Source: Methylacidiphilum infernorum V4
Lineage (GTDB): Bacteria > Verrucomicrobiota > Verrucomicrobiia > Methylacidiphilales > Methylacidiphilaceae
Direction of reading: 5' to 3'
Length of the DNA stretch: 64,000 bases
NCBI RefSeq assembly: GCF_000019665.1
Contig: NC_010794.1
Location: 1,240,001 to 1,304,000 of the forward strand
Shown: in pieces, positions 1-16,671 of the stretch
Layout of the letters: every line of letters begins with the position of its first letter
Position numbering within the stretch: position 1 is the first letter of the stretch
Translations under genes and position numbers: made by a program
The notes under the pieces: generated by a model
Database searches by the model: none
Seen by the model: the letters and a program-made list of their open reading frames with translations, nothing else
What the model was told of the DNA's origin: nothing

Positions 1-62
1 ACAGCTAATCCTCCAACGGCTATGGAATGAAGAGTTTCCCACGATAACATGGCAATTTTCAT
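1..62 (-). CDS. Glycosyltransferase (glycogen synthase-like), N-terminal fragment
   Basis: Reading leftwards from an ATG at 62, twenty codons are open to the window edge and contain the motif SWETLHSIAVGGLA. A short beta strand followed by a Ser-Trp-Glu and a Gly-Gly-Leu-Ala loop is the usual start of GT-B fold glycosyltransferases of the glycogen/starch synthase type, where the glycine loop contacts the nucleotide sugar. Only the N-terminus is visible, so donor and acceptor cannot be named. It is divergent from the aminotransferase at 515. The assignment rests on 20 residues and is an inference from family knowledge. Confidence 0.55.
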   Translation of the reverse strand, partial: MKIAMLSWETLHSIAVGGLA

Positions 63-514
63 AAGATAATAAAAAACCTAAGAGATTAATACGGTTAGAC
101 ATAATATAAACCCGGGACCCAGAGATAACACTACCTTAGGGTTAAATAAGAGTTTTGTTGCTTTTTTGATAGGTGTTTCTCTGTAACGATCAAAACCGCT
201 CCGCCAGGCTACTTCTGCTTAAAGAGGAACAATTCCAGTTCCTGCTTTGCTCAAGACGAATTCGCCCGGGCCGGGGAACCCGGAGCTGGGCCTTCTTCCC
301 CCCAGGGGAAGACCGTGATTCTGAAGGCCGATACTCGCCGAACATTCATGAAAGAGCATAAGGGCAAAAACTTGCTTTTGAACTGCCTACACCCCTTTCC
401 CTACCGGTGATTCCTTAACAAAATCTTTAAAAAACCCTTTGTTTTTTTACTCCTCTACTTATAAAACAATCCTATCGATAAATCAACTTGGTTTTCGCCT
501 ACAACTTGAACGAT
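63..514. other. Divergent intergenic region with GC-rich hairpin element
   Basis: This 450-base spacer separates two divergent genes and should hold both promoters. Most of it is AT-rich, but about 180-345 is clearly richer in GC. The strongest structure is at 289-329: GGCCTTC (289-295) can pair with GAAGGCC (323-329), and a TTCCCC/GGGGAA stem nests inside. A second GC-rich inverted pair (CCGGG/CCCGG) lies just upstream at about 266-283. A GC-rich structured island in AT-rich spacer is a common sign of a non-coding RNA or leader, but I do not recognise a known family. No convincing protein gene is present. Confidence 0.35.
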
Positions 515-1636
515 ATGAGCAGTTCGAAAATTTCTTCCCTTCAAATTCCCAAGCGGCTCTTGATGGGACCTGGCCCAAGCATTGTAGCCGACTCGATCCT
601 GGAAAAAATGGGCAAGGCTCCCGTAGGACATCTCGATCCCTATTTTCTCTCCTTGATGGATGAAATAAAAGTCATGCTAAGAGAAGTATTCCAAACGACA
701 AATGAATTTACCTTCCCGATCAGTGGAACGGGAAGCGCAGGCATGGAGTTTTGTCTCGTCAACCTTGTAGAACCGCAAGACACGATCTTGGTAGGGATAA
801 ACGGTCTATTTGGAAGGCGCATCGCTGATCTCGCCCTAAAGTTAGGAGCCCATGTTCATACCCTTGAAGTAGGATGGGGAGAAGCCATCGAAGCCGAACA
901 GCTCGAACAAGCCCTTAAAAAAGTAAAACCCAATCTTGTGGCCTTGGTCCATGCCGAAACTTCTACGGGAATCTGCAACCCCTTAGAAGAGCTTGCTCCA
1001 ATAATATCCAAAAGTGGCGCCCTTTTTATCCTTGATACCGTTACTTCCTTGGGGGGATGCCCGGTCTTTATCGACCGTTGGTCCGTTGACGCCACCTTCA
1101 GCGCTACACAAAAGTGCATTGGGGCTCCTCCAGGACTTTCCCCCGTTTCTTTTAGTCCCAAAGCCATGGAAAAGGTAGCGCAAAGGAAAACAAAAATTCC
1201 CAGTTGGTATTTTGATTGTTCTCTACTCTATGGTTATTGGGGATCTGAACGCTCTTACCACCATACCGCACCGATCAATAATAATTATGGTTTACATGAA
1301 GCCTTGAGGTTAATCCTCGAAGAGGGATTGCAAAAAAGGTGGGAACGGCACAAAAACGCCCATCTCCAACTCAAAAAAGCTCTTTCTGAACTTGGGCTTG
1401 AATTTTTTACCCCTGAAAATCGCAGGCTGTGGCAACTCAATGCCGTTAGGGTTCCCCAAGACAAGGACGAAGCCCTTTTGCGTAAGAAACTCCTTGATCA
1501 ATACGGTATCGAAATAGGTCCGGGGTTGGGACCTTTAAAAGGAAAAATATGGCGTATTGGACTGATGGCCGAGGGGGCTAATCAAGAAAATATCGCTAAA
1601 TTACTTGAAAGCTTAAAGCAGGTTTTAAAAAGTTAA
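515..1636 (+). CDS. Alanine-glyoxylate/serine-glyoxylate type aminotransferase (class V)
   Basis: A fold-type I PLP enzyme of about 373 residues, close to the usual length of the alanine-glyoxylate/serine-pyruvate aminotransferase family. The PLP phosphate-binding segment GTGSAGMEF is near residues 71-79. The Schiff-base lysine is in SATQKCIGAPPGL (about K200), and the Asp of LDTVTSLGG lies before it. The family moves an amino group from alanine or serine to glyoxylate. In a RuBisCO-using autotroph this would recycle glyoxylate made from phosphoglycolate; that role is inferred. The frame is open from a TTG at 488, but the ATG at 515 is preferred because the homologous part begins there. It converges on the ArsC-like gene with only 8 bases between the ends. 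Confidence 0.85.
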   Translation: MSSSKISSLQIPKRLLMGPGPSIVADSILEKMGKAPVGHLDPYFLSLMDEIKVMLREVFQTTNEFTFPISGTGSAGMEFCLVNLVEPQDTILVGINGLFGRRIADLALKLGAHVHTLEVGWGEAIEAEQLEQALKKVKPNLVALVHAETSTGICNPLEELAPIISKSGALFILDTVTSLGGCPVFIDRWSVDATFSATQKCIGAPPGLSPVSFSPKAMEKVAQRKTKIPSWYFDCSLLYGYWGSERSYHHTAPINNNYGLHEALRLILEEGLQKRWERHKNAHLQLKKALSELGLEFFTPENRRLWQLNAVRVPQDKDEALLRKKLLDQYGIEIGPGLGPLKGKIWRIGLMAEGANQENIAKLLESLKQVLKS

Positions 1637-1644
1637 AAAAGATA

Positions 1645-2010
1645 TTAACGGAGGGAATGGAGAAATTCTTTAATTTTTTCAGGAGGCCTCCCAAGAATGG
1701 CTCTCGTTCCATATTCAACAATGGGCCTTTGAATGAGCTCAGGATGTTTTAAGATGAGCTCCACAAGCTCTCCTTGCCGGAGTTGCCTTTTCCCCAGCCC
1801 GAGTTCGGAAAAAACTTCCTCTTTTGTCCTTAGGATTTCAGGAAATCCTACATCCAGTTTTTTTAAAAGTTCCGCCCATTTTTCCTTGCTTAGAGGATGG
1901 ATAAAATAATCTCTTTTTTCGTAATCCACCTTTAGTTCTTCAAGCAGGGCTACCGCTCTACGGCAAGTAGAGCAACTCGATTTTACATAGATAAAAAGTT
2001 TTTCCGCCAT
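1645..2010 (-). CDS. ArsC/Spx family thioredoxin-fold protein
   Basis: A 121-residue protein with the full length of the ArsC/Spx family. It opens with a beta strand and a CSTC redox pair at residues 13-16, followed by a helix (RRAVALLEELKVDYEKRDY) typical of glutaredoxin-like arsenate reductases. The family includes thiol-dependent arsenate reductases and Spx-type regulators. The sequence does not decide between them, and no ars operon lies nearby. The conserved RPIVEYG segment near residues 94-100 resembles the RP-[IV] region that holds the anion-binding Arg in ArsC. It is convergent with the aminotransferase. The family assignment is secure; the substrate is not. Confidence 0.8.
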   Translation of the reverse strand: MAEKLFIYVKSSCSTCRRAVALLEELKVDYEKRDYFIHPLSKEKWAELLKKLDVGFPEILRTKEEVFSELGLGKRQLRQGELVELILKHPELIQRPIVEYGTRAILGRPPEKIKEFLHSLR

Positions 2011-2049
2011 TTTCCCTATTTTTCCCTTTTTAACGCTCCAAAGTCAACT

Positions 2050-2500
2050 GTTCCTTTTTTGCACCTTTCAACCTTCAACGAATTAAATAGGTCCTCTTCA
2101 TAACAAGCGAGTGATGGACCGGAATCTCAAAACAATGTTGGATAAGGGACAAGAAATTCAAAAGGAATAACGAATCATCGCTTGCATCCAAAAAGGCATC
2201 TGGAGGGCGGCATACTCGAGGTTCGCGGTGCACGCGGGGGTGAAGCCGGGTGCTCCCGCGATCCAGTAGTGGTTGTCGGTGAAGTTGTAGAACCAGATCC
2301 GCGCCTCCCAGTGCTTGGCGGCGTAGAAGAAGCTCGCGTTCAAGGTATACCAGGCCGGCGCCCGGACGGAGTAGTCATAGGAGAGGAATTGGCCTCCCTG
2401 CGCGATCGCCCATAAGGAGGCGCCGAAGCCCGAGTCGGTCTTGTAGGTGAGCATCAGGTTGCCGTACTCCTTGGGAAAGCCGATGAAAGGATAGATGCCG
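2050..2500. repeat. Left copy of duplicated receptor 3' end and flank
   Basis: The segment from GTTCCTTTTTTGCACC at 2050 to about 2500 is nearly identical to 6872-7323. It covers the 3' flank and the last roughly 115 codons of a TonB-dependent receptor. Beyond 2500 similarity falls sharply. It marks the left end of a tandem duplication whose right unit is 6872-9723. The duplicated part is GC-rich compared with surrounding DNA. Confidence 0.9.
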
Positions 2501-2676
2501 TGGGGAAGGGATATAATCTGGCTAACGGGCAGATTATAAAGGGCGGCCACCGTGGCTGAACAAGGGGTAAGTTGGGGAAGAAGGGCCGACATGGGCGGCT
2601 TGGTAAGAAGTTTGAGTATAAGGAGTCCCTTCTGGGGGGAAATCTTCAACAAAATAAATACCCAAAGCAGATTCAA
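2158..2676 (-). pseudogene. TonB-dependent receptor, C-terminal barrel fragment
   Basis: The last roughly 125 residues are almost identical to the end of the intact receptor at 6981-9515, including FIGFPKEYGNLMLTYKT and the terminal beta strand ending MQAMIRYSF. A C-terminal aromatic strand is the outer-membrane insertion signal of beta barrels. The first 45 or so residues of the frame show no receptor homology, and there is no signal peptide or plug domain. It is therefore a remnant: the cut-off 3' end of the left receptor copy, whose 5' end survives at about 5455-6663. The gap between them is filled by another receptor gene. Expression as a functional protein is unlikely. Confidence 0.85.
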
Positions 2677-2811
2677 TGAGAGAAAGTTTTTTTCATTTTC
2701 CAGTTGAATTTAAATATCATAAGCTCCCTTATCCCAGGGAATGAAATATTCCCAATGCTTCTTTATTGGTCTTCTTCTCTTTTTTCCAGTCACCCTAGCT
2801 AAAAATGGCGA

Positions 2812-5800
2812 TTAGAATTTCCAGGCGATGGTGCCTTGGATCCAAAATGGCAGGCCGGCAACAATGCCGCCGTAATCGTTTGTCCGATCGGGCATGGAGC
2901 CAATGGCGTAGGGAAGCCAGTAGTGTTCGTTGGTGAGGTTGTAGATCCAGAGGGAAATTTCCCACTTCGGCTGGGAATAGAAGATGCGGCCGTTAATAAG
3001 GTATTGCCAGGGGATCGCCGTGGCGTAGTTGTAGCCGAGAAACTGCGGGCTCATCACGAGGGCACTTAAGGTTACGCCAAAGCCCGATTCGGCCTGGTAG
3101 GTCACCATGGCGTTGATAACCTGCTGGGGCCAGCCGATGAAAGGATAGGTACCGGGAGGAAAGCTCAAGTTGTCGTTGAGCGGCAGGTTGGCCCGTAGGG
3201 CAAGGGCAGTGGAATAAGTCTGTGACATAGGTGGCCCGGAGGGCAAGCCGGACCAATCTTCCACACCATGGCCAAAGAAATAGCCCGTGCGCATCCACCA
3301 GTGACGATTGGGTTGATAGGTGAGGTTAGCTTCAAGGCCGGTCACGGTCGCCGGGGTAGGTGGAACATTGACAAAGTTAAAGAGGGGAATTTGCTGTGAA
3401 AAGCCGGCCAGAGAGGCATAAAGCTTGTTATCGAGAAGGCTCCACTTGAAGCCTCCCTCGAAGAGTTGTTCCTTTAAATTGAAGCTGCTTGAAGGCAACC
3501 CGCTAGGATAGACGTTAAATCCCCCGACCGCCCCTACATTGGCGACATACATCCAATCGTAGGTAAAGTAAGCGGTCCACCAGGGAACGACCTTGTAGAT
3601 GACGCTAGCATTCACCATGGGAAGCTCTTGGATGGTTTGGGCTTGGATGAAAAGCTCGGGAGGAGTTCCCGGCGGAGTTTGGCTCGAAATGAAATAGGTA
3701 GTGGCGCGAGCCCCAACCAGGATTGAGATCTTATCGGTAACCTGGATATCATGCTGGTAGAAGGGTGCAACCGTCCAGTAGTTGGAATCGGTCGTTCCGG
3801 CACTTCCATTGAGCGGCTCGAAATAGACGCCGGGCATACCCGGGATCGGCCACTCTCCGCCTCCCGGGGCCGAGGGATTACGGATCAGGGATTGGAAGAA
3901 AGCGGTCTGGGTAAAGTTCCAGCTCGTGGGATTGGTTCGGAGGATATCCCAGGCGTTTGCACTGCCAAACCATAGTTGCGACTCATAATCGAGATTGTGT
4001 TCAAACCCCCATTCGACCCCGGCGTCAATCTGGTGTTGGACCAGGAGCTTACCAAGCAGCCTGTCTTCCCAAGAAGAGATTTTATCCGATAGGTCGTTAG
4101 AACCTCCAAACCGGGTTATGAGCTCGGTACGGTTGTCTATTTGATAATCTCCCATGGCTACTTCGGTGTAGTAGGAAGCCGGAGCGACTACCGCATTCCG
4201 TCCGTAGTAGGCAAAAGTGTTGTTGCGAAGTAGCAGGCCATCTCCCAGTTGAAGCTGTTGGACCAACTGGATGAATCCCGTGTAAGCTCGACCTTCCGAT
4301 TCAGGGTTGTTGGCAACCATTCTTCGGCTAATCGGCTCAAGAGGTCCCGCATAGGTAGCAAATCCCGGGTTATTGACCGTGCCGATTTGAATTTGAGATA
4401 GAGGCAAAGAACCGGTATTGTAGAGCCCATTCTGGATAAGAGCGGTGGTTGGCCGATTCATCCACTCCATCATGGGAGTGAAGTCGTAGGTTCCAAAATC
4501 GGAGTAGAAGTTGATCGAGTAGCTTTCGGTGGGTCGAGCGCCAAGGGTGAAATAAACGTTCTCCTGGTCGTTATGGACATTGGGCTGGTAGTAGCTTCCG
4601 TTTTCAATGCCCATGTAACTGAGCCGGTAAGCTGCCTTGTGTTCTTTATCCACGGGTCCTCCTAGATCCGCTCCCCACATGTAATTTTCATACATGCCCG
4701 TGGTGTCCCATAGCTGGCCGCGAAAGCGGTCGAAATAGGGCTGCTTGGTAATGTAGTTGACCGTTCCGCCTGCCGGCTGCTCTTGTCCGAAGACGGCGTT
4801 GGCTGGACCCTCTGTAATATCCTCGGACTCGACCATGTTCCAATTAAAAGGGGTAAGTGGCATTCCCGCTTGGAGAGCGGTCAATTGGATACCATTGATG
4901 TAGGGTTGTGCAGCCATGCCGCGAACGGAAGGGGCAGCCATCATACCACCGCTATTTTCGCTGATCGAGCCAGGGATCAAGAAAGCGGTGCTCAACGGAT
5001 CGATATAGCCTTGGGCAGCCATGCCGGAGGAACGGATGAGGGTTTGACTGACCTGAGTGAGTTGCCGCGGAGTGTCCAAAACAGAAAAGTCCATGCCGTA
5101 GACCGAGGAGCTTTCTGTCGGAAGAACATCCGACGCTGGCAGAGCCGCAGCCGTCACCGAGACTTCGGGGAGCATAATTTCTGTTCCCACAACGGATGAA
5201 GACGAATCAGGCGGAACTGTGTATCCGCAGTTCAAGCAAAGGGAAAAAAGGGAAAGGATCGTGGTTGAGACTAACTGAATCTTTCCCTCTTCTCGTCGAG
5301 CTGTTGACAAGGCAAGCTTTGAGCCCTGCCATCGAGGGTCCTCATGGTCCCTGCAGATAAAAAAGAGGGCATAATCCCCTCTACTAGCCTTGCGATTTTT
5401 ATACGACAGGTTGTGCAGGCAGGAAGCTTTCTTGGCACGCCCGCCCCTACCCTCATGTTGGGAGAATGATTTAGCTGGTATCTTTAGAAATAAGGCTAAT
5501 AAAGCTAGGCTAACAACTAAGGCATAAGAAAGGGGAAGGGATGCAAAGACAAAAGTTAGGGGGACAACCCTTTTTGCCTGGTTGGTTGTCGAATGCCAAC
5601 TTCCCGAATATTCCAAGTCTGTAAGGTAACGAAAAGCTACCCCGGTATCCAAGTTTTGCCAGAATTTTTTGGATCCTTTTCTCGCCTCGTTAAACCGTAG
5701 CTCAAGACGGTCGGCTACATCTATTCCATAAGGCATGACGACCCAGGTGGGGAAAAGCCACCTATTCACGAAAGCCCGCTCTTCTGTTAACTCAAGAGAA

Positions 5801-6663
5801 CTGATCGGCTGGCTGACCGCGTAGAGTTGGCATGAAAAATCAAAAGGGATGTTAAATATATTGGACTTAATGCTTAAGGGCACCAAGGGACCCCACAAGG
5901 TGGCATACCCAAAACCCGGAAGAGGTGTTCCTACCCCAGGATGAAATTGCCCAAAGGGGCTGGATGAAATAGCCGGCGGAGTATAGTAGCCAATCCAATT
6001 CCTGCTTTGGTAAAGTCCATTATCGATAAGGTTTTGAGTCGGCCGATCTATGCCCGTATAAGGAACAAGATCATTGAAATCCAGCTCCCCATTCCAATCC
6101 AACCGGAGGGTTCCCGATGGCTTCAAGCTTAAGGCAAGATAAGCACACTGCCGGTTCAAGTAGGAACCCTCATGGTAATTATAAGGCGCATAGCCGTCCT
6201 GGCCAAAGTAAACCAACCGGTAAGCTAACTCTCCTTCCTTAATGGGGCCACCCAGATCAATGTTCCAAAAGTTCGTCCCATACATCCCAAAAGTATAAAA
6301 AGCATCTTCCCGAAAACGGTCAAAATAAGTCTGCTTGGTCAGTTCATCGAGATAGCCTCCCGAAAATTCTTGCGGTCCATAGATCACGCCCACCGGCCCC
6401 GTAACCAGCTCCGGACCATAAACTGAAGAACGAGGGAGCTCTTCTGCCGTCGCTTGCCCTTCATTCTGGGGAGAAGTCGCGCTAACAAGGACTTCCGGCA
6501 TCAAGAAGAAAGAAGAAGAATTAACTCCTTGCTCATCCGCAGCAAGCATCAACCCTATGCCTAAGGGCTTAAGAGGCCAAAAAAGGAAGAAAAAAAACTG
6601 AAGAAAATAACCAAACCCCTTCTTGAAAAAATAGAAAGCAGCTACGGGCTTTTGAATCGTCAT
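2812..6663 (-). CDS. Chimeric ORF: truncated receptor fused to a complete TonB-dependent receptor
   Basis: One uninterrupted frame of 1283 codons, far longer than the 750-900 residues usual for the family. Residues 1 to about 400 match the N-terminal half of the receptor at 6981-9515, with an 86-residue deletion of the plug after SSVYGP and a further gap near residue 300. Residues about 400-450 resemble translated spacer. From about residue 452 a complete receptor begins: a signal-like segment (LVSTTILSLFSLCLNCG), a TonB-box-like LPEVSVTA, a plug (GPANAVFGQEQPAGGTVNYITKQPYF) and a 22-strand-type barrel ending TIAWKF. The second receptor has no ATG near its signal; a TTG at 5310 would give an 832-residue product with a normal signal peptide. 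The real product may therefore be 2812-5310 rather than the fusion. Such receptors import metal chelates or cofactors across the outer membrane with TonB; the ligand is unknown. Confidence 0.8.
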   Translation of the reverse strand: MTIQKPVAAFYFFKKGFGYFLQFFFFLFWPLKPLGIGLMLAADEQGVNSSSFFLMPEVLVSATSPQNEGQATAEELPRSSVYGPELVTGPVGVIYGPQEFSGGYLDELTKQTYFDRFREDAFYTFGMYGTNFWNIDLGGPIKEGELAYRLVYFGQDGYAPYNYHEGSYLNRQCAYLALSLKPSGTLRLDWNGELDFNDLVPYTGIDRPTQNLIDNGLYQSRNWIGYYTPPAISSSPFGQFHPGVGTPLPGFGYATLWGPLVPLSIKSNIFNIPFDFSCQLYAVSQPISSLELTEERAFVNRWLFPTWVVMPYGIDVADRLELRFNEARKGSKKFWQNLDTGVAFRYLTDLEYSGSWHSTTNQAKRVVPLTFVFASLPLSYALVVSLALLALFLKIPAKSFSQHEGRGGRAKKASCLHNLSYKNRKASRGDYALFFICRDHEDPRWQGSKLALSTARREEGKIQLVSTTILSLFSLCLNCGYTVPPDSSSSVVGTEIMLPEVSVTAAALPASDVLPTESSSVYGMDFSVLDTPRQLTQVSQTLIRSSGMAAQGYIDPLSTAFLIPGSISENSGGMMAAPSVRGMAAQPYINGIQLTALQAGMPLTPFNWNMVESEDITEGPANAVFGQEQPAGGTVNYITKQPYFDRFRGQLWDTTGMYENYMWGADLGGPVDKEHKAAYRLSYMGIENGSYYQPNVHNDQENVYFTLGARPTESYSINFYSDFGTYDFTPMMEWMNRPTTALIQNGLYNTGSLPLSQIQIGTVNNPGFATYAGPLEPISRRMVANNPESEGRAYTGFIQLVQQLQLGDGLLLRNNTFAYYGRNAVVAPASYYTEVAMGDYQIDNRTELITRFGGSNDLSDKISSWEDRLLGKLLVQHQIDAGVEWGFEHNLDYESQLWFGSANAWDILRTNPTSWNFTQTAFFQSLIRNPSAPGGGEWPIPGMPGVYFEPLNGSAGTTDSNYWTVAPFYQHDIQVTDKISILVGARATTYFISSQTPPGTPPELFIQAQTIQELPMVNASVIYKVVPWWTAYFTYDWMYVANVGAVGGFNVYPSGLPSSSFNLKEQLFEGGFKWSLLDNKLYASLAGFSQQIPLFNFVNVPPTPATVTGLEANLTYQPNRHWWMRTGYFFGHGVEDWSGLPSGPPMSQTYSTALALRANLPLNDNLSFPPGTYPFIGWPQQVINAMVTYQAESGFGVTLSALVMSPQFLGYNYATAIPWQYLINGRIFYSQPKWEISLWIYNLTNEHYWLPYAIGSMPDRTNDYGGIVAGLPFWIQGTIAWKF
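5455..6663 (-). pseudogene. TonB-dependent receptor, decayed N-terminal half (part of chimeric ORF)
   Basis: This is the 5' half of the left copy of the duplicated receptor, read in frame with the receptor downstream. It keeps a signal peptide close to that of the right copy (FFKKGFGYFLQFFFFLFW) and the motif LPRSSVYGP. It lacks 86 plug residues relative to the right copy and loses homology after the segment aligned to the right copy's SGSWHPTSNQA. Bases 6413-6663 are nearly identical to 9265-9515, whereas 5455-6400 has diverged and is less GC-rich than the matching part of the right copy. Without an intact plug or the C-terminal barrel strands it cannot form a receptor on its own. Confidence 0.75.
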
Positions 6664-6872
6664 TAAAAAAAGCTTATATAAAGAAAAGGCCCCTCACTGC
6701 TAACTCTTGCTTGTTCCATTTTTGACTCCATCTTGCAGTAATAATCACCCTTAGCCACTTTTTTCTCCTTTTCCCCAAGTAAAGGAAGGCTCTTGACCGT
6801 TCCTAAAAATGGACTTATAGAGCTCTTATTCCCCGTTGGAGGAGTCCTTTTACTACGGTTTTGTGCCGAAAG
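6664..6872 (-). promoter_or_regulatory. Structured 5' leader of receptor locus, copy A
   Basis: About 209 bases before the ATG at 6663 are almost identical to the leader of the right receptor copy (9516-9723). On the minus strand nested complementary segments can pair: ACCGT (rc of 6855-6859) with ACGGT (rc of 6796-6800), GGACT (6843-6847) with AGTCC (6811-6815), and a C-rich arm with GGGG (6831-6834). Nearer the start, TTACTGC can pair with GCAGTGA. No Shine-Dalgarno sequence precedes the start codon, which follows a T-run. One change between copies, C to T in the C-rich arm, keeps a G-U pair. I do not recognise a known riboswitch; a cis-regulatory RNA is an inference. Confidence 0.45.
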
Positions 6873-7323
6873 TTCCTTTTTTGCACCTTTCAACCCTCAA
6901 CGAATTAAATAGGTTCTCTTCATAACAAGCGGGTGATGGACTGAAATCTCAAAACGATCGTTGGATAAGGGACAAGAAATTCAAAAGGAATAACGAATCA
7001 TCGCTTGCATCCAAAAAGGCATCTGGAGGGCGGCATACTCGAGGTTCGCGGTGCGCGCGGGGGTGAAACCGGGTGCTCCCGCGATCCAGTAGTGGTTGTC
7101 GGTGAAGTTGTAGAACCAGATCCGCGCCTCCCAGTGCTTGGCGGCGTAGAAGAGGCTCGCGTTCAAGGTATACCAGGCCGGCGCCCGGACGGAGTAGTCA
7201 TAGGAGAGGAATTGGCCTCCCTGCGCGATCGCCCATAAGGAGACGCCGAAGCCCGAGTCGGTCTTGTAGGTGAGCATCAGGTTGCCGTACTCCTTGGGAA
7301 AGCCGATGAAGGGATAGATGCCC
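6872..7323. repeat. Right copy of duplicated receptor 3' end and flank
   Basis: This segment is nearly identical to 2050-2500 and directly abuts the leader copy that ends at 6872, so 6872 is the junction of the tandem duplication. It carries the 3' flank and C-terminal codons of the intact receptor at 6981-9515. One extra base in the flank shifts the offset between copies from 4822 to 4823. Confidence 0.9.
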
Positions 7324-9515
7324 GGGGCGAGGGAGACGATCTGGCTGACCGGCAGGCCGTACTGGGCGGCGACGTTTGCGGGATAGGGGGTAAAGGTGGT
7401 CGGGCCGACGCCGTCGGTGTTCGTCCAGTTCTCGTACCCTTGCATGTAGTTGAATCCGAAGTTCGCCCAAAAATGGCGGTCCGGCCGATAGCTCCCCTGA
7501 AGCTGAACCCCTTGGACATCGGCGGAAACGGTCGGGGTTGTGCCTCCCGGAAGGACGAAGGCCGGGATGAATCCAGACTGGGCATAGGCCGAAAGCCCGA
7601 GAAAGAGCGTATCGCGGAGGAGAGAGAGCTTGAGGCCCGTCTCGTAGAGGGTCTGGGTCTGGTGGTAGTAGGTGCTGGTGAACTCCGGAGCGAAGGAGCC
7701 GAAGATCGATTGGGCGGTCGTCTGCCCGAAGTAGTAGGTCGCATACCAGGAAAGCCAAGGGAAGATCCGGTAGGTGGGGCTGGCGGTGACCTGCGGCAGG
7801 AGGGCACTTGTCGAGGTCGCGTCGTAGCTCGGGCCGATGAGCTGTGCCGGGGTGCCGGAGGGCGGTTGGGCGTTGACGAAGTAGGCATCGACACGGGCGC
7901 CGAGGAAGAGGCTCGCCTTTTCTCCGAAGTGGAGGATGTCCTGGACGAAGGGGGAGATCTCCCAGAAGTTGCATTGGGTCGAGGCGAAGTTGTCGACGTT
8001 GTAATACTCTCCCGGATAGCCCGGAATCGGAATGTCCGTGAGAAACGGATTAGCGTAGGCGGGGCTGATTGCCAGCGAGTAGGGGACGATCGTGGAGGCG
8101 GAGGCGGGCGTCAATGGCTTGCTCATATCGGCCTGGTTGCTCGTCGGATGCCAGCTCCCCGAATACTCCTCGTCGCTCAGGAAGCGGAAGGCGAGGCCGC
8201 TATCGATGCTCTGCCAAAAGCTTTTTCTCTGCTGCTCCGGCTCCCAGCGGATTTCGAGCCGATCGGCGACATCGACCCCGTAGGGCAGGACGACCCAGGT
8301 CGGATCCGGGATCGGCTGGGCGGCATTCGCCTGGAAATACTCGAAGAGCGTGTTGTTGACGAGGGTGAGCTCGTCGCTCAGTCGGATCGTGGCGATCGCC
8401 TGGCTCACCGCGTAGAGCTGATGCGAGGAGTCGAGCGGGGTATTGAAGAGGTTGGCCCGGCCGCTGATCGGGACTTGGGACCCCCAGTCGATCGCGTATC
8501 CGGAGCCCGGCGGCGGCGTCCCTTGACCCGGGTGGAACTGGCCGAAGGGCTGTGCCGCGGTAGCCGGTGGGGTGTAATACCCGATCCAGGAGCCGGTCTG
8601 GTAGAGTCCGGAGTCGATGAGGGATTGAGTCGGCCGGTTGATTCCGGCGTAGGGAAGAAAGGAGTTCTGATCAAGCTCCGCATTCCAGTCGACTCGGATC
8701 TCCTCCGCGGGCTTCCAAGAAAGGGCGAGATAGGCGCACTCCCGGTTCAAGTAGGAGCCATCATAGTAGTTGTAGGGCGCGTAGCCCTCCTGCCCGAAGT
8801 AGTCGAGCCGGTAGGCGAGCTTCTTCTCCTTGTCGATCGGGCCGCCTATGTCGATGTTCCACATGTTGGTGTCGTACATCCCCAAGGTGTAATAGGCGGT
8901 GCCCCGGAAGCGGTCGAAGAAGGGCTGCTTGGTCACCTCGTCAACATATCCGCCCGCGAACTCTTGTGGCCCATAGACAATGCTCACCGGTCCCGTGACG
9001 ACATCGAGCGAGTCGTCCGCGTTGATATTGGGAAGGGGTCCCCAGTTCCCCCCACTTGAAAACCCCACCAATTGCCCATTGCGAAAAACCGTGGCCGGAA
9101 GTCCACGCATCACCGGTTCACTGACCACGTTTCCCGTGGCTTCGGTGGGGTTGATGGAAGGACTGAAAGCCACCAAGTCGTTAACCGTTTGGGTCATTAC
9201 CGTGTGGAGCTGTTCCTGGGAAATCAAAGTCACATCTCTGGGAATGTCTAACAAGGACAGATCCGGACCATAAACTGAAGAACGGGGGAGCTCTTCTGCC
9301 GTCGCTTGCCCTTCATTCTGGGGAGAAGTCGCGGTAACAAGGACTTCCGGCATCAAGGAGAAAGAAGAAGAATCAACTCCTTGCTCATCCGCAGCAAGCA
9401 TCAACCCTATGCCTAAGGGCTTAAGAGGCCAAAAAAGGAAGAAAAAAAACTGAAGAAAATAACCAAAACCCTTCTTGAAAAATTGGGAAGCAGCTACGGG
9501 ATTTTGAAGCGGCAT
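6981..9515 (-). CDS. TonB-dependent outer membrane receptor
   Basis: An 844-residue receptor of normal length. Residues 1 to about 41 form a long signal peptide with a Phe-rich core. A TonB-box-like MPEVLVTATS follows near residue 55, then the plug domain (IPRDVTLISQEQL, VMRGLPATVFRNG, VVTGPVSIVYGPQEFAGG) to about residue 210. The rest is beta barrel ending in MQAMIRYSF. It would take up a chelated nutrient using proton motive force through TonB-ExbBD, which is not encoded nearby. The central part, roughly 7005-9010, is strikingly GC-rich, while the first roughly 170 codons and the leader match local composition, suggesting a recombinant gene. The start has no Shine-Dalgarno and follows a structured leader. 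The ligand cannot be predicted. Confidence 0.9.
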   Translation of the reverse strand: MPLQNPVAASQFFKKGFGYFLQFFFFLFWPLKPLGIGLMLAADEQGVDSSSFSLMPEVLVTATSPQNEGQATAEELPRSSVYGPDLSLLDIPRDVTLISQEQLHTVMTQTVNDLVAFSPSINPTEATGNVVSEPVMRGLPATVFRNGQLVGFSSGGNWGPLPNINADDSLDVVTGPVSIVYGPQEFAGGYVDEVTKQPFFDRFRGTAYYTLGMYDTNMWNIDIGGPIDKEKKLAYRLDYFGQEGYAPYNYYDGSYLNRECAYLALSWKPAEEIRVDWNAELDQNSFLPYAGINRPTQSLIDSGLYQTGSWIGYYTPPATAAQPFGQFHPGQGTPPPGSGYAIDWGSQVPISGRANLFNTPLDSSHQLYAVSQAIATIRLSDELTLVNNTLFEYFQANAAQPIPDPTWVVLPYGVDVADRLEIRWEPEQQRKSFWQSIDSGLAFRFLSDEEYSGSWHPTSNQADMSKPLTPASASTIVPYSLAISPAYANPFLTDIPIPGYPGEYYNVDNFASTQCNFWEISPFVQDILHFGEKASLFLGARVDAYFVNAQPPSGTPAQLIGPSYDATSTSALLPQVTASPTYRIFPWLSWYATYYFGQTTAQSIFGSFAPEFTSTYYHQTQTLYETGLKLSLLRDTLFLGLSAYAQSGFIPAFVLPGGTTPTVSADVQGVQLQGSYRPDRHFWANFGFNYMQGYENWTNTDGVGPTTFTPYPANVAAQYGLPVSQIVSLAPGIYPFIGFPKEYGNLMLTYKTDSGFGVSLWAIAQGGQFLSYDYSVRAPAWYTLNASLFYAAKHWEARIWFYNFTDNHYWIAGAPGFTPARTANLEYAALQMPFWMQAMIRYSF

Positions 9516-9723
9516 TAAAAAAGCTTATATAAAGAAAAGGCCCCTCACTGCTAACTCTTGCTTGCTCCATTTTTGACTCCATCTTGCAGTAATAACCACC
9601 CTTAGCCACTTTTTTCTCCTTTTCCCCAAGTAAAGGAAGGCTCTTGACCGTTCCTAAAAATGGACTTATAGAGCACTTATTCCCCGTTGGGGGAGTCCTT
9701 TTACTACGGTTTTGTGCCGAAAG
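9516..9723 (-). promoter_or_regulatory. Structured 5' leader of receptor locus, copy B
   Basis: The counterpart of the leader at 6664-6872, differing at only a handful of positions. On the minus strand the possible nested stems are 9706-9710 with 9647-9651, 9694-9698 with 9662-9666, and 9689-9693 with 9682-9685. A further stem TTACTGC/GCAGTGA lies closer to the gene. One base fewer in the A-run before the start codon than in copy A shifts the overlapping upstream reading frame, which argues that the element acts as RNA rather than as a leader peptide. Similarity stops at 9723, the right end of the duplicated unit. Confidence 0.45.
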
Positions 9724-9923
9724 ATACATGGATTATCAAGGTTGTTTATCTTGAGATCGGCCAGCGTAGCCTTGAGATGCTTGCTACCCCGGATCCTTTG
9801 CCGAAACTTTCGCAATCCTAAATGAAAATTTTACTTATCAACCCATTAAAAAAATTTTTCTTTTCAGCTGTTTAATTTTAAAAGCTATGTCAGTATAAAT
9901 ACAGGACAACAACCCTGATCCTC

Positions 9924-10013
9924 ATGAAATTTCCCGTCTTTGTCTTTTTCTTTATTCTTCTTTTTGTCCTCGTTTGGGGATTTGCCATTTATTACCTTTC
10001 GACCCGCTTTTAG
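9924..10013 (+). CDS. Possible 29-residue single-pass membrane protein
   Basis: A short frame beginning MKFPVFVFFFILLFVL and ending YYLSTRF: one long hydrophobic helix with a Lys at the start and an Arg near the end, the expected form of a tiny inner-membrane protein. It lies alone in the spacer between the receptor leader and the repeat protein. There is no clear Shine-Dalgarno sequence, and the AT/T-rich base composition alone could produce such a frame. I do not recognise a family, so this is a candidate only. Confidence 0.3.
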   Translation: MKFPVFVFFFILLFVLVWGFAIYYLSTRF

Positions 10014-10174
10014 GTCCTCTTGCCCAGGGAGGCACTTGAAAGGCCTTGGATAAGGCAATCTTATCGAGGCATTTCTCTACAAGTACAAGATGAAAAAATT
10101 CTCCTTTTTTGCTAGGGCTGCTTTCTTAGTCTTTTACAACAAGCAACTTAGAAAGAAGAGTGGAGTTTCCCCTA

Positions 10175-10687
10175 TTATCTATAAACAATAACGGGTAGAG
10201 GTTTGCGAATCGGCTTTCCGTTATAATAACCTATCGTGCCAAAAGACATATTGCCTACATTTTGGATAAAAAGACGATGCTGCCCGACCCTGCCCATTTC
10301 GATATTCCCGATCTTTTGAATGAAGATCGATTCGTTACCTACATGGCCAATAAGCATATTCCCTACTCTTTGCGTAAAAAGGGGTCTATTGCCGAAATGC
10401 CCTATAGTGATGTTTCCGATTCGATTCTCAAAAAAAGGCTTCCCACCCACATTCCCAATAGTCATGTTCCCAATGGATTGAGAAAAAAAGGGCTTGCCCC
10501 CGATATTTCCTATGGATGTATTGCCGATTCTTTGAGAAAAAAACGAACGGTTCGCTGTCTGTCCATAATAACTTCTTTTCAAGCCGAAACTTTGCCGATT
10601 GCCTCCTGCTGAAGTAGTATATCCATCAAAAGCAAGAGAACTCAATATAAAACAAAACGTAAAACAAGAAGACAAAACCGTTTTCAT
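10175..10687 (-). CDS. Secreted protein with six ~18-residue IGN repeats
   Basis: A 170-residue protein with a signal peptide (MKTVLSSCFTFCFILSSLAF). After a short Gly/Ser/Tyr-rich linker come six tandem repeats at residues about 49-159. The consensus is FFxQxIGNxxIGxxGxxP with a strict 18-residue period, except for a 3-residue insertion in the last one. Each repeat reads as two nine-residue half units ending in Gly-Asn or Gly-Gly turns, as expected of a small beta-solenoid or stacked hairpins. The C-terminus is basic and proline-rich (KPIRKPLPVIVYR). I do not recognise a named family or enzyme residues; a structural or surface-binding role in the cell envelope is an inference. It stands alone, with gene-free DNA on both sides. 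Confidence 0.75.
   Translation of the reverse strand: MKTVLSSCFTFCFILSSLAFDGYTTSAGGNRQSFGLKRSYYGQTANRSFFSQRIGNTSIGNIGGKPFFSQSIGNMTIGNVGGKPFFENRIGNITIGHFGNRPLFTQRVGNMLIGHVGNESIFIQKIGNIEMGRVGQHRLFIQNVGNMSFGTIGYYNGKPIRKPLPVIVYR
10211..10543 (-). repeat. Array of six 54-bp coding repeats
   Basis: The DNA that encodes the six 18-residue units of the secreted repeat protein. Units are divergent at nucleotide level but keep the codons for IGN and the following Gly. The last unit is 63 bases long. Divergence between units suggests old duplication kept by selection rather than a recent slippage array. Confidence 0.7.
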
Positions 10688-11430
10688 ATCTAAGCTTATC
10701 TTTTTAATAAAATCTCGGGTAAAATTAAATGTTAAAAATTCTCTTGTACTCCAAAAAAAATAGAAAGACTAGATCCTCCCATTTTAATCTTTGCCCATAA
10801 TAGGTAGGAACTGCAGACTTGATAGTAGACTCATAGAAAAATGGAAGAGGATTATGAGCTTCCAAGAAGGTATCTTGTATCTGTTATTCATTACCAGGGA
10901 AATAAACATATTATTCGAACAGGATTAATAGGAAGAAATTCGGGGAGATAAAAAGGAGAAATATCATTTCATCCCCCTCTTTTTAATTTCTAAAGAAATG
11001 GCTTTAAAAACTTTTTATTCTTCAAAATAATCCGGTAATTAAGCTTATGAGAAGTTCTTATTTAAGAACATTTAAGATCAAAACCCGGAAACTCCCTTTA
11101 TTCGATATAAAACGTAGTTCAAAAATGAGGGATAAGTTAGCTGAGCGGGAAAGAAAAAAAAGGAACTGAATTTTAAAAATTGGAAATATTAAAATTTTTA
11201 CGATTTGTAAGTCTAACCTTGCCTCGTTTTTCTCAGCATCTAACAGTGAATTTTTTTTCAGTTCATCATACCTAACCCCTTTTGTCTTCTAGATGTCGAA
11301 TCGGTTTTTACTTCAAGCGAACAAATCTTGGTAAAAAAAAAATAGTTGATAAGAAAAGAGCAAAAAAGAGCTAAAAACGAAGCATTCCAAAGTTAGCAAG
11401 GAGGAATGGAAAGTCTATACTCCCCTTCTG
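10688..11430. other. AT-rich intergenic region without a clear gene
   Basis: About 740 bases of low-GC spacer between the repeat protein and the broken receptor. The best frame is 10841-10951 on the plus strand, 36 codons starting MEEDYELPRRYLVSVI. It has no ribosome site and no recognisable family, so I do not call it a gene. AAGGAGG occurs at 11399-11405, about 25 bases ahead of the receptor start at 11431, too far for normal spacing. No transposon ends or long inverted repeats were seen. Confidence 0.4.
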
Positions 11431-13850
11431 ATGAAAAAAAATTTTTTCTTTTCCTCAAATTCGATTTTCTCTTTTGGTTTATTTATTTTTATCTTTTCGA
11501 ACCCCTGGATTTTATTGCATGGCCTAAAAGCTGAACCCTTGTCTTCGGATTCCCTGCCCGCATCAGCCCTTCCCGAAGTCGTAGTCCAAGCTACAGCCGA
11601 ACAATCCGTCCTCCCTACAGAGCGACCCCTTTCTTCTGTTTACAACAGTCCTTTTAACATCATGGACATCCCCAGGTCCGTTACACCCATCAACAAAATT
11701 CTGATGGATTCAGCAGGTATTGGCTCTCAAGGTTGGCCTGATCCGCTGAGTATCACGATGGCCAGCCCCGCTGCCCAATTCGATGCTTCAGAACTTTACG
11801 AAATGTCCTCGCTATTATTAGGGGAAAACCTGGCCTTACCTTCATTAACGGCATTGAACAAAATGTCAACAATGACGGTTTTTTCAACCCCCCATGGAAC
11901 TTTAACATGGTAGAAAATTTTGACCTAGTCGAAGGGCCCCCTGGTGCGGTGTTTGGTGCAACCCAGCCCTCCAACGGATATGTCAATTATATTACCAAGC
12001 AACCCCATTTCGACAAATTCAGAGGTTATGTGTGGGATACTACCGGCATGTATGAAAACTACATGTGGGGGGCTGACATAGGAGGGCCAGTGGATAAAGA
12101 ACACAAGGTAGCTTACCGGTTCAGTTACATGGGCATTGAAAACGGAAGCTACTACCAGTACGTGCACAACAACCAGCAAAATTTTTACTTCGCCCTTGGA
12201 TACAATCCGTCGGAAAATTACCAGGCGGATCTTTATTTTGATTATGGGAACGCCGATTACACCCCGATAGAGGTACTCCTCGATAGACCAACCCAGTCTC
12301 TAATCGATAATGGCCTTTATATTACGGGATTTTTGCCCCCTTCCGCAGTGACCGCAGGAACTGAAAACAATCCCCCCGCCAACACTTACCTGAATGGAGA
12401 ACTGCCCATAAGCCGCCGAGCCACGGTAAAATATCCTGGAGACATCGGCCAAGCCAATTTTGCCATGACCCAACTGATTCAAAGAATACATGTGAATGAC
12501 AACCTGGAGATCGTCAATAACACCTTTTTCTGGTACCAAGATCAAACGGCTATCCGTTTTGAAACCTACGAAGCTAACGTTTTTAAAGGAGATTACGAAA
12601 TTGACAACCGAACCGAGGCCAGGACCCATTTCGATACAGATTTGGGAAGCGGTCATAACCTCCTTAACATAAAACACTTTATAGATTCGGGTTTTGAATT
12701 TCGTTTTCAACGTACCCTCGATTACCAATCCGAAGTCTATCTTGGCAACAGCTGGGATGCGATCACCGAAAACCCTCAACTCTACAACTTTCTTTTGTCG
12801 AACAACTTCGGATCCTTTGGGCTCTATCCCATTCCGGGCTCTCCAGCAGGGGGCTATTTCATTCCCCTAAATGACGAGACCAACCAAACCCAATTTTTTA
12901 GGCTTTCCCCATTTTACCAGCACCAAATGAATTTTTCTGACAAGATCATCCTCTTTGTTGGAACGAGAATGGACGGTTATTTTGTCCATTCACAAACCCC
13001 TCCCGGAACCCCAGGCTTTTTATTCCAATCTCTCAATACAACCCAACTCAACCCTCTTGTCAATGCGGCCATAACATACAGACCGGCCAGATTTGTAAGC
13101 CTCTATTTCAATTACAACTGGCAATACACAACCAATGCCTCGGGTGGAGGAGGATACTCTCCTCTCTTTCCCCCCACCGCTTTTCATCTTCTCAACCAGC
13201 TTATCGAAGGGGGAGTTAAATGGAATCTCCTTAATGAAAAGCTTTACATTTCCTTGGCAGGATTTTCCGAAGACACCTATTTAGGAAATATCGAGTTTCC
13301 TGCTACTCCCGCTTCTTTTAAAGGCTTGGAAGCTAACCTCACCTTTCAGCCGGACAAACATTTCTGGATAAGGCTTGGGTACCTTTTGGAGCAAGGAATC
13401 GAAGATTGGAGCGGATTCCCTGAAGGCCCGGAAATGGCGCAAACTTATTCTACCCAATTTGCCAAGCAGTATGGACTTCCCTTGAATAACGACTAAGCTT
13501 TTCCTCCCGGCAAGTACTCCCTGATCGGTTGGCCCGATCAAGTTTTTAGCGGGATGCTTACTTATAAATTCGACTTGGGCTTGGGACTGACCCTCGGGGC
13601 AATCGTTCTATCCGATCAGTATCTTGGTTACGATTACCGGACCAGGATTCCTCTCCAATTCGTTTTGAACAGCTCCCTTTTTTATTTCTCTCCCAAGTGG
13701 GAGATGCGGATTAACCTCTTTAATTTTACAAATGAAAAATATTGGCTTCCGGCAGGAGTAGGCATGTCACCCACGAGAGAATTGGACTATACTTCCATAG
13801 TCGCCGGCTATCCTTTTTGGGCACAGGGAACCGTTTCCTATAAGTTTTAA
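11431..13850 (+). pseudogene. TonB-dependent receptor, broken by a frameshift and a stop codon
   Basis: The parts add up to one receptor closely related to the one at 2812-5310. A signal peptide and a TonB-box-like ALPEVVVQATAE lie in frame 1. The plug continues in another frame from about 11790 (VLAIIRGKPGLTFINGIEQ), so a single-base-type frameshift lies at about 11770-11815. The barrel then runs without break to an in-frame TAA at 13494-13496, after LPLNND. The reading frame continues directly with AFPPGKYSLIGWP and ends in the proper barrel strand GTVSYKF at 13850. Two independent lesions make a sequencing error less likely and indicate a decaying gene. Shared motifs with its relative include WDTTGMYENYMWGAD and MGIENGSYY. 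Confidence 0.88.
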
Positions 13851-13970
13851 ACCGGTTTCTTATAGAGAGGAGCTGAAACCCTAAAAAAGGATAAAATACC
13901 CTTAATGAAACGTGGATGAAAAGAAAAAGTTCTTATTAAATAATAAAAACCGATTATTTTCTTCTCTCTA

Positions 13971-14231
13971 TTATCTCCGTTGATTGAGTCGAAGGGGACT
14001 TTTTTTAGGCGACACCGGCTTCGAGGATTTTTCTTTTAGCTCCAATTTTTCTTCTATTTTTCCTTCCGGAATAACTTGCTTTCTCATGCTGTTTTCCAAA
14101 GCCGAAATAATCGTTACAGCTATCTCCTCAGAAGGAACGTCGGCGATCCATTTCCCCTTGGAATCGATAAGGGCAATCAAGTGGGGTTGATAGGATGATT
14201 TTTGCCAGCTAATAGGTAGTTCGATGATCAT
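13971..14231 (-). CDS. Hypothetical protein, 86 residues
   Basis: I do not recognise this family. The first half reads like a small alpha/beta domain (LIALIDSKGKWIADVPSEEIAVTIISALE), and the C-terminal 30 residues are very basic and rich in Lys, Ser and Pro, which could bind nucleic acid. An AAGGAG ribosome site lies nine bases before the ATG, supporting translation. It is divergent from the 307-residue unknown protein, and both lie in markedly AT-rich DNA. Function is unknown. Confidence 0.6.
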   Translation of the reverse strand: MIIELPISWQKSSYQPHLIALIDSKGKWIADVPSEEIAVTIISALENSMRKQVIPEGKIEEKLELKEKSSKPVSPKKSPLRLNQRR

Positions 14232-14430
14232 TTTTTTTCTCCTTATATTCTTTTTATTAATACTTTTATTTTATTATATTTCTTTTTTTTTTAAAGAAAA
14301 CAAAATTTTTAAATAAAATAAATTATTTTCATTCTATTCTCTAAATAAAGATATTTAAACTACCGGTTCTTTTAAAATCTATATTTGTAATATTTTTTTA
14401 TTTTATATTCATTGCTATTTTTGTATAACT

Positions 14431-15354
14431 ATGCTATCCAGGAATCTAATGAATAGAGAAGTAATACGATCAGTTATTCCATTCAGGCTATTCAATGCAC
14501 AACAAGAAAAATGGCGTGAGGCTTTTTTAAAAGTAAGTTGGATGCTTGCCGAGGCCAATTGGCTTTATAAGTTGCTCGTCTTAAGTGCTAACCAAACCGA
14601 GGAAAAGGTAAAAGCGGAAAATGACGCCTCGCTTTGGTTGCGATTTCTTGTCCTGACAACCCTTTGTAGTAAGAGTCATGAAGGTTGGCTGATCCTTTCA
14701 GGTGAAAAAGACAAGAATGTCCATGAGGTTATAGAGGAATTACTTAAGTCTACCGACGATTCAGAAAAGAAACAAAAATTGCTGGAAATGCAAGAGAGTT
14801 TAAAAGAACAATTGGGAAATGACAAGGGGATAGCATTAATTAGGAATAACATAGGATTTCATTATCAATATAAAAAATTGAATTTTCCCCCTCTTCCGAT
14901 CCAAGAAAACTCTCCTATTTTATCCATGCTTTTTACACCTGAAACTTACTCAGGACCTGAAACTCACTCAGGTGATATTCTTCCGTTAATTTCCTTATAT
15001 CCTCTAGATCAAGCCATTATCGACTTATGGCCTAGACAAAAATCTGATGAAACAATGCAAAATGATGATGACGGAAAAATTTCAAAAACACCCGAAACAG
15101 GAGAATGGAAAGAAAAATTTTCAGAAGTTTTGAACGAATTGAGTTGTGTACAAACAAAATATAATGACTACTTGAAAGACATCTTCTTGCTTTTTATTGA
15201 AGACCTATGTAAGAAATACAATCCTATCGAAAATTTTCTCTCATCTGAAACAGTTCAAAATCCTCCTTCCCATAAGAATCAAAAGATTTATTTTTTTATG
15301 GAGCCTCCCTCACAGGATGAAATGCAATATTATCAATCAGAAATTACGCAATAG
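14431..15354 (+). CDS. Hypothetical protein, 307 residues
   Basis: I do not recognise this protein. It appears soluble and mostly helical, with charged segments (for example residues about 95-125) and no signal peptide or membrane helix. A small repeat, ETYSGPETHSGD, lies near residue 170. Low GC and Asn/Lys-rich composition differ from the housekeeping genes. A second start is possible at 14449, with AGGAAT before it. It sits between the broken receptor and a GC-rich hydrolase in a patchwork region, consistent with acquired DNA. No toxin, nuclease or phage motif could be seen. Confidence 0.6.
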   Translation: MLSRNLMNREVIRSVIPFRLFNAQQEKWREAFLKVSWMLAEANWLYKLLVLSANQTEEKVKAENDASLWLRFLVLTTLCSKSHEGWLILSGEKDKNVHEVIEELLKSTDDSEKKQKLLEMQESLKEQLGNDKGIALIRNNIGFHYQYKKLNFPPLPIQENSPILSMLFTPETYSGPETHSGDILPLISLYPLDQAIIDLWPRQKSDETMQNDDDGKISKTPETGEWKEKFSEVLNELSCVQTKYNDYLKDIFLLFIEDLCKKYNPIENFLSSETVQNPPSHKNQKIYFFMEPPSQDEMQYYQSEITQ

Positions 15355-15367
15355 GAGAAAAGAGATT

Positions 15368-15463
15368 ATGGATCCTTACAAGCGGATCAAAAAAACAAAG
15401 CTGAAGGAGGATTTCCAGGCCCTTTCCCAAGAAAGAACCTATTTGTTCCAACTCCCATTCTAA
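15368..15463 (+). CDS. Possible 31-residue basic protein
   Basis: An ATG follows AGGAGAAAAGAGATT, a fair ribosome site, just 13 bases after the stop of the 307-residue gene, so coupled translation is possible. The product is short, with a Lys-rich start (MDPYKRIKKTKLKEDF). There is no homology that I can recognise and the frame is too short to be convincing alone. Confidence 0.2.
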   Translation: MDPYKRIKKTKLKEDFQALSQERTYLFQLPF

Positions 15464-15582
15464 AACGAAGAGGGGGTCCAAAAGGGAAAACAATGCTGCC
15501 AATAACCCGCATTGACGGGCCAGCCAAGTTGCCTAAAAAGAAATCGCAGCTTAAAGGTGGCGTTACGGAAGAACTTGAGGGT

Positions 15583-16671
15583 TTAGGGACTTCCTCCTTG
15601 ATTGTCCCGGATATAGGAGCGGTAGGCTTCCAGTGCCGGGCGCGGCCTGATCTGGCCCTTGGCGGGCACAGCAAACAATCCCCAGCTATACTCGACCGGT
15701 CCATGAGTGCGACCCGGCGCATCAAAGGCAAAGGTCCAAAAAACTTTCTTTACCTGGGGATCGGAGAAGTTCGTCCGGAGGGTATCTAGCAGGTAACGGG
15801 CTTGGGCTTCCGGGCCACCCTGGTAACCTGAATCATTCTGCTCTTCTGGATTAGCAGGATAGGCAACCTCGTCAATCCATATGGGAAGCTCGCGACCTGC
15901 GTCCCTAGCCATTACTTCGCGGGCATCACGTAGCCACCGCGCTTGGGCCGAAGGGGGAATATCGTTATAGTGCATGTTAAAGGCATCGATGTTCTTGTAA
16001 AGAGGGTTTTGCGCATCATTGACGAGCGCCCTGTAGTAGCGCATGAGTGGTGCGGTAGGCGGCAGGTCCCACCATACGCATCCTGAAAGCACAATGGCTT
16101 CGGGCTCGACTCTGTGGATCTGCTTATAGGCGATGGCCAGGGCACGGGCATATGTTTGCGGTGTCCAAGCCGGGATGCGACGGTTCAAAAGACCGGGTTC
16201 GTTCATCACCTTCCATGCCGTGACGATCCCCTTGTACCTTGAGCTGACGCGCAAGACATACTCAGCCCAATTGTTCCAACTGCGTGGAGGATATTGGTAG
16301 GAGAGCGGCGATCCTGCAGGGGCAGAAGATGCCCAAGAGGGCACATCCCCCAGCTCGGCCAGGATACGCATGTGATGTCGCAAGGCTGCTTGCACAATGG
16401 CATCCGTCCGGCTGAATGTCCACTCACCCGGTCGGGGTTCTACCATGGTCCAAGAAAGGCCGATCCTAAGGTAGCCAATCCCCGCTTGTTCCAAGCCCTC
16501 GAGAAGAGGGTCTGCCATCTGTAACCCCAACTCGTTCTTCAGCACCACAAAGTTGATGTCCACTCCATAGGGACTGTCCGGCGGGATGGCGGCATCGAGG
16601 GGTGCCGCTTTGCAGGGAAAAAGGAATATTCCCAAAATGAGCAACGGAGCTATCGTCATGGCGGCAGTCAT
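15583..16671 (-). CDS. Clan GH-A glycoside hydrolase (GH5/GH39-like), exported
   Basis: A 362-residue protein with an N-terminal signal peptide (APLLILGIFLFPCKA) and a TIM-barrel glycosidase. The acid/base Glu is in KVMNEPG (about E158) and the nucleophile candidate is in PIWIDEVAYP (about E268). Their spacing and strand context fit clan A, which hydrolyses beta-linked glycans with retention. Aromatic residues around GLSWTMVEPRPGEW suit sugar stacking. The exact family and substrate cannot be decided by eye. The gene is richer in GC than its AT-rich neighbours on both sides and is isolated, which suggests acquisition. A start at the second Met (residue 5) is also possible. Confidence 0.8.
   Translation of the reverse strand: MTAAMTIAPLLILGIFLFPCKAAPLDAAIPPDSPYGVDINFVVLKNELGLQMADPLLEGLEQAGIGYLRIGLSWTMVEPRPGEWTFSRTDAIVQAALRHHMRILAELGDVPSWASSAPAGSPLSYQYPPRSWNNWAEYVLRVSSRYKGIVTAWKVMNEPGLLNRRIPAWTPQTYARALAIAYKQIHRVEPEAIVLSGCVWWDLPPTAPLMRYYRALVNDAQNPLYKNIDAFNMHYNDIPPSAQARWLRDAREVMARDAGRELPIWIDEVAYPANPEEQNDSGYQGGPEAQARYLLDTLRTNFSDPQVKKVFWTFAFDAPGRTHGPVEYSWGLFAVPAKGQIRPRPALEAYRSYIRDNQGGSP

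Follow-up and report, generated by a model that had tools for sequence, protein, structure and literature searches.

How did Methylacidiphilum infernorum V4 come to carry two adjoining TonB-dependent receptor units that are nearly identical at their ends and strongly divergent in between, with a frame of 1283 codons lying open across the left one? The window that we analysed, a stretch of 64,000 nucleotides, covers positions 1,240,001-1,304,000 of the 2,287,145-bp chromosome of this acid-loving methane-eater (chromosome size from passages of the genome paper, PMC2474590). It was compared with 12 relatives, making 13 genomes searched with V4 itself: the own-genus genomes G001-G004, of which G001 is Methylacidiphilum sp. 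Yel and G004 is Methylacidiphilum kamchatkense Kam1, and genomes of Methylacidimicrobium including G006, G007, G008 (strain LP2A), G010 (Methylacidimicrobium tartarophylax) and G011 (Methylacidimicrobium cyclopophantes). DAHP synthase, a core protein encoded 8 kb away, served as a yardstick of relatedness and gives the normal order, with 88-90% identity to the own genus and 65-66% to Methylacidimicrobium. Calling the receptor of the right unit A, its left counterpart A' and the receptor of another subfamily B, the locus is made up as follows:

2050-2157, minus strand: 3' flank of the left unit, a copy of the right-unit flank
2158-2480, minus strand: C-terminal remnant of the left unit, donor type, 98.8% identical to the right gene over ~320 nt
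2480-2575, minus strand: C-terminal remnant of the left unit, own-genus type (TPxSATVAALYxLPVS), with TPCSATVAALYNLPVS as in Kam1
2812-5310, minus strand: receptor B, complete and constrained, of a different subfamily
5173-5463, minus strand: B's own 5' region, aligning with DNA upstream of B in G008 and G007
5464-6405, minus strand: left fragment A', own-genus type, matching right codons ~172-496, decaying
6406-6872, minus strand: left leader, signal peptide and codons 1-86, a repeat of the right leader
6872, no strand: tandem-duplication joint, where the units meet with a 1-bp overlap
6872-6980, minus strand: 3' flank of the right unit, with a copy at 2050-2157; unlike the donor
6981-9515, minus strand: complete hybrid TonB-dependent receptor A of 844 codons, ending IRYSF like the own-genus orthologues (the donor ends IQVSF)
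6997-9050, minus strand: body of receptor A, codons ~155-840, Methylacidimicrobium type, GC about 62%
9050-9258, minus strand: codons ~87-155 of receptor A, not donor-like, 66-70% identical to Methylacidimicrobium G007
9258-9723, minus strand: right-unit leader (5' noncoding DNA, signal peptide, TonB-box-like stretch, codons 1-86), AT-rich

Comparison of the window with itself bears out the duplicated ends where the original prediction had put them: positions 2050-2570, with 3' flank and C-terminus, return as 6872-7393 (direct repeat, 93.3% over 522 nt), and 6406-6872, with leader and N-terminus, return as 9258-9723 (direct repeat, 96.4% over 467 nt), E being about 0 in both cases. The two units had also been said to abut at 6872, and so they do, sharing a single base, as in illegitimate tandem duplication with nearly no homology. 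Between these conserved ends the units diverge strongly, 5803-6405 being only 67% identical to 8394-8999, and most of the remaining left unit is taken up by receptor B. The duplicated leader has no Rfam match (positions 1-16000 of the window were scanned), and a promoter and terminator scan gave a signal close to chance level. Among the 13 genomes the leader sequence occurs in two copies only, both in this locus; the right one, taken as 9240-9760, has no match in any of the 12 relatives.

Breakpoints were located by segment trees, windowed DNA identity, GC content and the sites that separate the two genera. Over positions 7000-9000 the right gene shares 95.6% of its nucleotides with receptor A of Methylacidimicrobium G007, whereas its identity to the own-genus orthologues is only ~68-72%. 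The alignment with G007 runs ungapped over 2225 nt (6997-9221) at 93.3%, within which 9053-9221 reaches only 69.8% (Fisher p 3e-24 against the body); towards the 3' end of the gene, similarity to the donor breaks off at 6997. At the genus-separating sites the body is almost wholly of donor type, and the last informative sites (3/3) are of own-genus type. GC content is 60-64% in the right body, about 40-45% in the leader and ~48% in A'. Segment trees place the right body and the left C-terminus inside Methylacidimicrobium, keep right codons 79-150 apart from the donor clade, and group A' with the own genus, as sister to Kam1, G003 and Yel. From the identity breaks, the GC content, the end residues and the segment trees, the right gene is thus a hybrid, in which the latter half of the plug and nearly all of the barrel stem from the donor; the sequence indicates that codons ~155-840 were acquired from a Methylacidimicrobium. 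Conflicting segment phylogeny and sharp identity breaks mark an interspecies recombinant (mosaic) gene, and right A has both. The leader and the first 155 codons we call resident, judging by their GC content and their mismatch to the donor.

The N-terminal plug domain of right A matches Pfam Plug (PF07715, E 7e-9) above the cut-off, and among solved receptors the gene matches the pyochelin receptor (3qlb, E 2e-14) and FoxA (6z8a, E 2e-12) over the plug region and the start of the barrel. Its C-terminal phenylalanine would fit an outer-membrane barrel; as regards the 22-strand beta-barrel expected of such receptors, an AlphaFold model of the hybrid has a pLDDT of only 26 (from a 7-row alignment). 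This hybrid is probably the working copy. Receptor A has 22 matching stretches in the V4 genome. In one Methylacidimicrobium (G006:C1:1513119-1515478) receptor A is split into frames of 690 and 301 codons, by a frameshift or a sequencing error.

The left unit had been described as holding N-terminal and C-terminal codons of the same receptor. Both are present, but A' and the right gene agree at only about 67% of positions, which makes A' a different, own-genus-type version rather than a recent copy; moreover, 86 plug codons are missing and the C-terminus switches type. The plug codons are absent at the 6405/6406 join, with a second loss, of ~13 codons, further in. The counterpart of right codons ~497-705 is absent too, receptor B standing in the place of these ~210 middle codons, and the roughly 230 nt that follow B match nothing. 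Measured at the 169 positions that are invariant in eight orthologues, A' has changed at 27 (16%), against 1-11 in orthologues tested alike. With its plug incomplete and its constraint lost, A' would fail as a functional receptor. The A' frame is still open and the 86-codon deletion is in frame, neither of which is required of a plain pseudogene, and this counts against decay. The C-terminal piece changes type near 2480-2500, with 4/323 differences from the right gene below and 20-57% mismatch above; the left end has probably been converted from the right copy, most simply by gene conversion.

We consider it probable that a resident duplication was followed by a body swap from Methylacidimicrobium on the right and, on the left, by decay, insertion of B and conversion of the end. 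In the first step a resident TonB-dependent receptor gene would have been duplicated in tandem, the joint at 6872 forming nearly without homology. Recombination with homologous Methylacidimicrobium DNA would then have swapped codons ~155-840, the body of the right copy, while its promoter region, signal peptide, TonB box, first plug half, last few codons and 3' flank stayed resident. Third, the left copy would have lost its function through the plug deletion, B replacing the ~210 middle codons, and fourth, its last ~320 nt would have been converted to the right-hand sequence. From the segments we thus infer both the succession of events and its mechanisms, homologous recombination and gene conversion. 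The original prediction had proposed duplication followed by replacement, and this holds in outline; the copy had been wrongly assigned, the clean body swap being in the right gene (6981-9515).

The order given is the simplest, and the few differences between the copies lean weakly towards it. The shared donor piece (4/323) differs less than the 3' flank (6/87, p 0.008), and its difference from the pooled noncoding flanks (10/294) is not significant (p 0.10). The reverse order, with the hybrid formed first and then duplicated, the left copy later regaining own-genus sequence together with B from another strain, would account for the donor-type C-terminus in both copies. It requires an extra gain of own-genus sequence on the left, and the tendency of the noncoding flanks to exceed the shared donor piece in divergence, though not significant when pooled, speaks against it; we regard this order as rather unlikely.

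What, then, of receptor B, which on the preferred account, with duplication first, was inserted into the decaying left copy? A complete receptor of a different subfamily, read in the same frame, had been placed in the middle of the left unit: B is indeed complete, its amino acid identity to A is ~36% and the frame is open, but B's ancestral ATG is out of frame. B has changed at 21 of 572 invariant positions, similarly to its orthologues, and looks intact. On the fused frame its plug domain gives PF07715 an E of 1e-4 (23.2 bits against a cut-off of 23.9), and its PDB matches are again 3qlb and FoxA (E 1e-7 to 1e-5). Although B is 82% identical to G007 and 74% to the own genus, so that a recent transfer from Methylacidimicrobium was considered, the tree joins it with own-genus genes. 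About 290 bp before B (5462-5173 of the window) can be aligned with G008 DNA lying upstream of its B gene. The ancestral start, which Methylacidimicrobium conserves as M(R/K)PxRR, is an ATG at 5345 and is frameshifted relative to B, so that B may be without a proper start codon. Perhaps B begins at the in-frame TTG at 5310, which would yield MSTARREEGKIQLVSTTILSLFSLCL, a plausible signal peptide; the hydrophobic signal-like stretch downstream of this TTG is conserved and in frame. Most likely B would be a working receptor, translated from a start of its own with its own signal peptide and not as part of a 1283-residue fusion.

The frame at 2812-6663 (minus strand) is indeed open for 1283 codons, as the original prediction had it. 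Its expression as one chimeric receptor, with the leader and half-barrel of A' ahead of B, would agree with the openness of the frame throughout, with the 96% conservation of the left leader and with the displaced ATG of B. We nevertheless judge a fusion protein unlikely: the A' part is without 86 plug codons and broken at 16% of invariant positions, B comes with a 5' region of its own and with a signal-like stretch after an in-frame TTG, and G008, where there is no fusion, has 1043 open codons at B, so that an open frame upstream of B is weak evidence of one. Most likely the 1283 open codons arose by accident and do not form one protein. Very unlikely, in our estimate, is an expressed double receptor, a truncated A' half-barrel before a full B, kept open since B could be translated only from the A' start. 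Nor is there need of a replacement that kept the host leader and signal peptide in the left copy, as had been supposed, because B arrived together with its 5' region and the copy that holds it is degraded.

The locus had further been called a possible receptor-switching locus; in such a cassette the repeats would recombine to place either receptor behind the leader. Two direct repeats of ~470-520 nt do flank different receptor bodies, and sequence has probably moved between the copies. However, recombination between direct repeats deletes one unit irreversibly; the repeats between the copies are direct only, none being inverted, the reading frames around them showed no recognisable recombinase or invertible element, and the relatives are without such an arrangement. 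A switching cassette is thus highly improbable, and the locus is clearly a case of ordinary receptor evolution. Least credible of all is an assembly artefact, which could be suspected from the Sanger shotgun with 3-kb inserts only (as stated in passages of PMC2474590), near the 2.85-kb unit, but the copies are 4-7% apart, easily separated by Sanger reads, and the mosaic breakpoints lie inside unique sequence.

In the relatives, receptors A and B are separate single genes at other chromosomal sites, without duplication or hybrid; the arrangement in V4 is therefore derived. Separate, unduplicated receptors in related strains had been expected to speak against the duplication, and they were found, yet they show a derived arrangement and do not falsify it. 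The flanking aminotransferase/ArsC-like pair is present in G002-G004, where the 19-kb stretches around it hold no match to receptors A and B; the A orthologues of the relatives lie elsewhere (loci L076-L078). In G002 and G003, whose frames were read, the next genes differ and include an operon of DUF692-type/bufferin-like genes, a family recognised by eye. The syntenic interval of the relatives has a DUF692 (MNIO-like) protein and a partner protein (L082 11681-13729, L083 4252-6031) and, in G002, also a Cys-rich small secreted peptide (bufferin-like); no such genes were seen at this place in V4.

The neighbourhood in V4 contains further genes. Receptor C, of the B-like subfamily (11431-13850, plus strand), is disrupted twice, by a frameshift near 11.9 kb and by a TAA at 13494-13496; it has orthologues of 79-84% identity in Yel, G003 and G002, the last of these with a TAG as well. 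The G003 orthologue lies in the same interval, so that the interval itself is a receptor-bearing, plastic region. A 221-nt stretch is shared between B (4541-4761) and C (11982-12199) at 81% DNA identity, the proteins being ~52% identical overall, possibly from an older exchange between receptors. Adjoining the receptor cluster, 10175-10687 (minus strand) encodes a secreted-looking protein of 170 residues in ~20-residue repeats (IGNxxIGNxGGKPFFxQ). The hypothetical protein at 14431-15354 (plus strand) looks similar, on visual comparison, to the one encoded downstream of G002's B orthologue (L085 10028-10858), a hint that the former surroundings of B may be present in this region.

The locus offers a well-resolved snapshot of a possible change of specificity in outer-membrane nutrient receptors, in which the expression and export signals and the energy-coupling end remain those of the host and another genus within the same family supplies the barrel. 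It is a record of DNA exchange between Methylacidiphilum and Methylacidimicrobium, and it carries a warning for annotation, in that a 1283-residue open frame is not to be called one receptor without evidence. Our literature search found no publication on mosaic receptors in verrucomicrobial methanotrophs. Receptors A and B belong to the expansion of TonB-dependent receptors reported in V4, with at least 19 paralogues according to passages of the genome paper (PMC2474590); unlike here, those passages do not mention mosaic structure or replacement of a receptor body across genera. The same receptor A exists as a single gene in the own genus (G001-G004) and in Methylacidimicrobium (G007, G008 and M. 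tartarophylax), and, unlike that of V4, it is there unduplicated, non-hybrid and at other chromosomal sites. Mosaic genes for outer-membrane proteins are already known. In Pseudomonas, the mosaic oprD gene and the types of the pyoverdine receptor fpvA under selection (PMC2777410) are likewise outer-membrane genes whose diversity comes from block-wise DNA exchange or from selection on the type of receptor. Exchange there is mostly within species or between near relatives, whereas the V4 locus is a new example in which it has passed between genera, within a tandem duplicate and in an acidophilic methanotroph.
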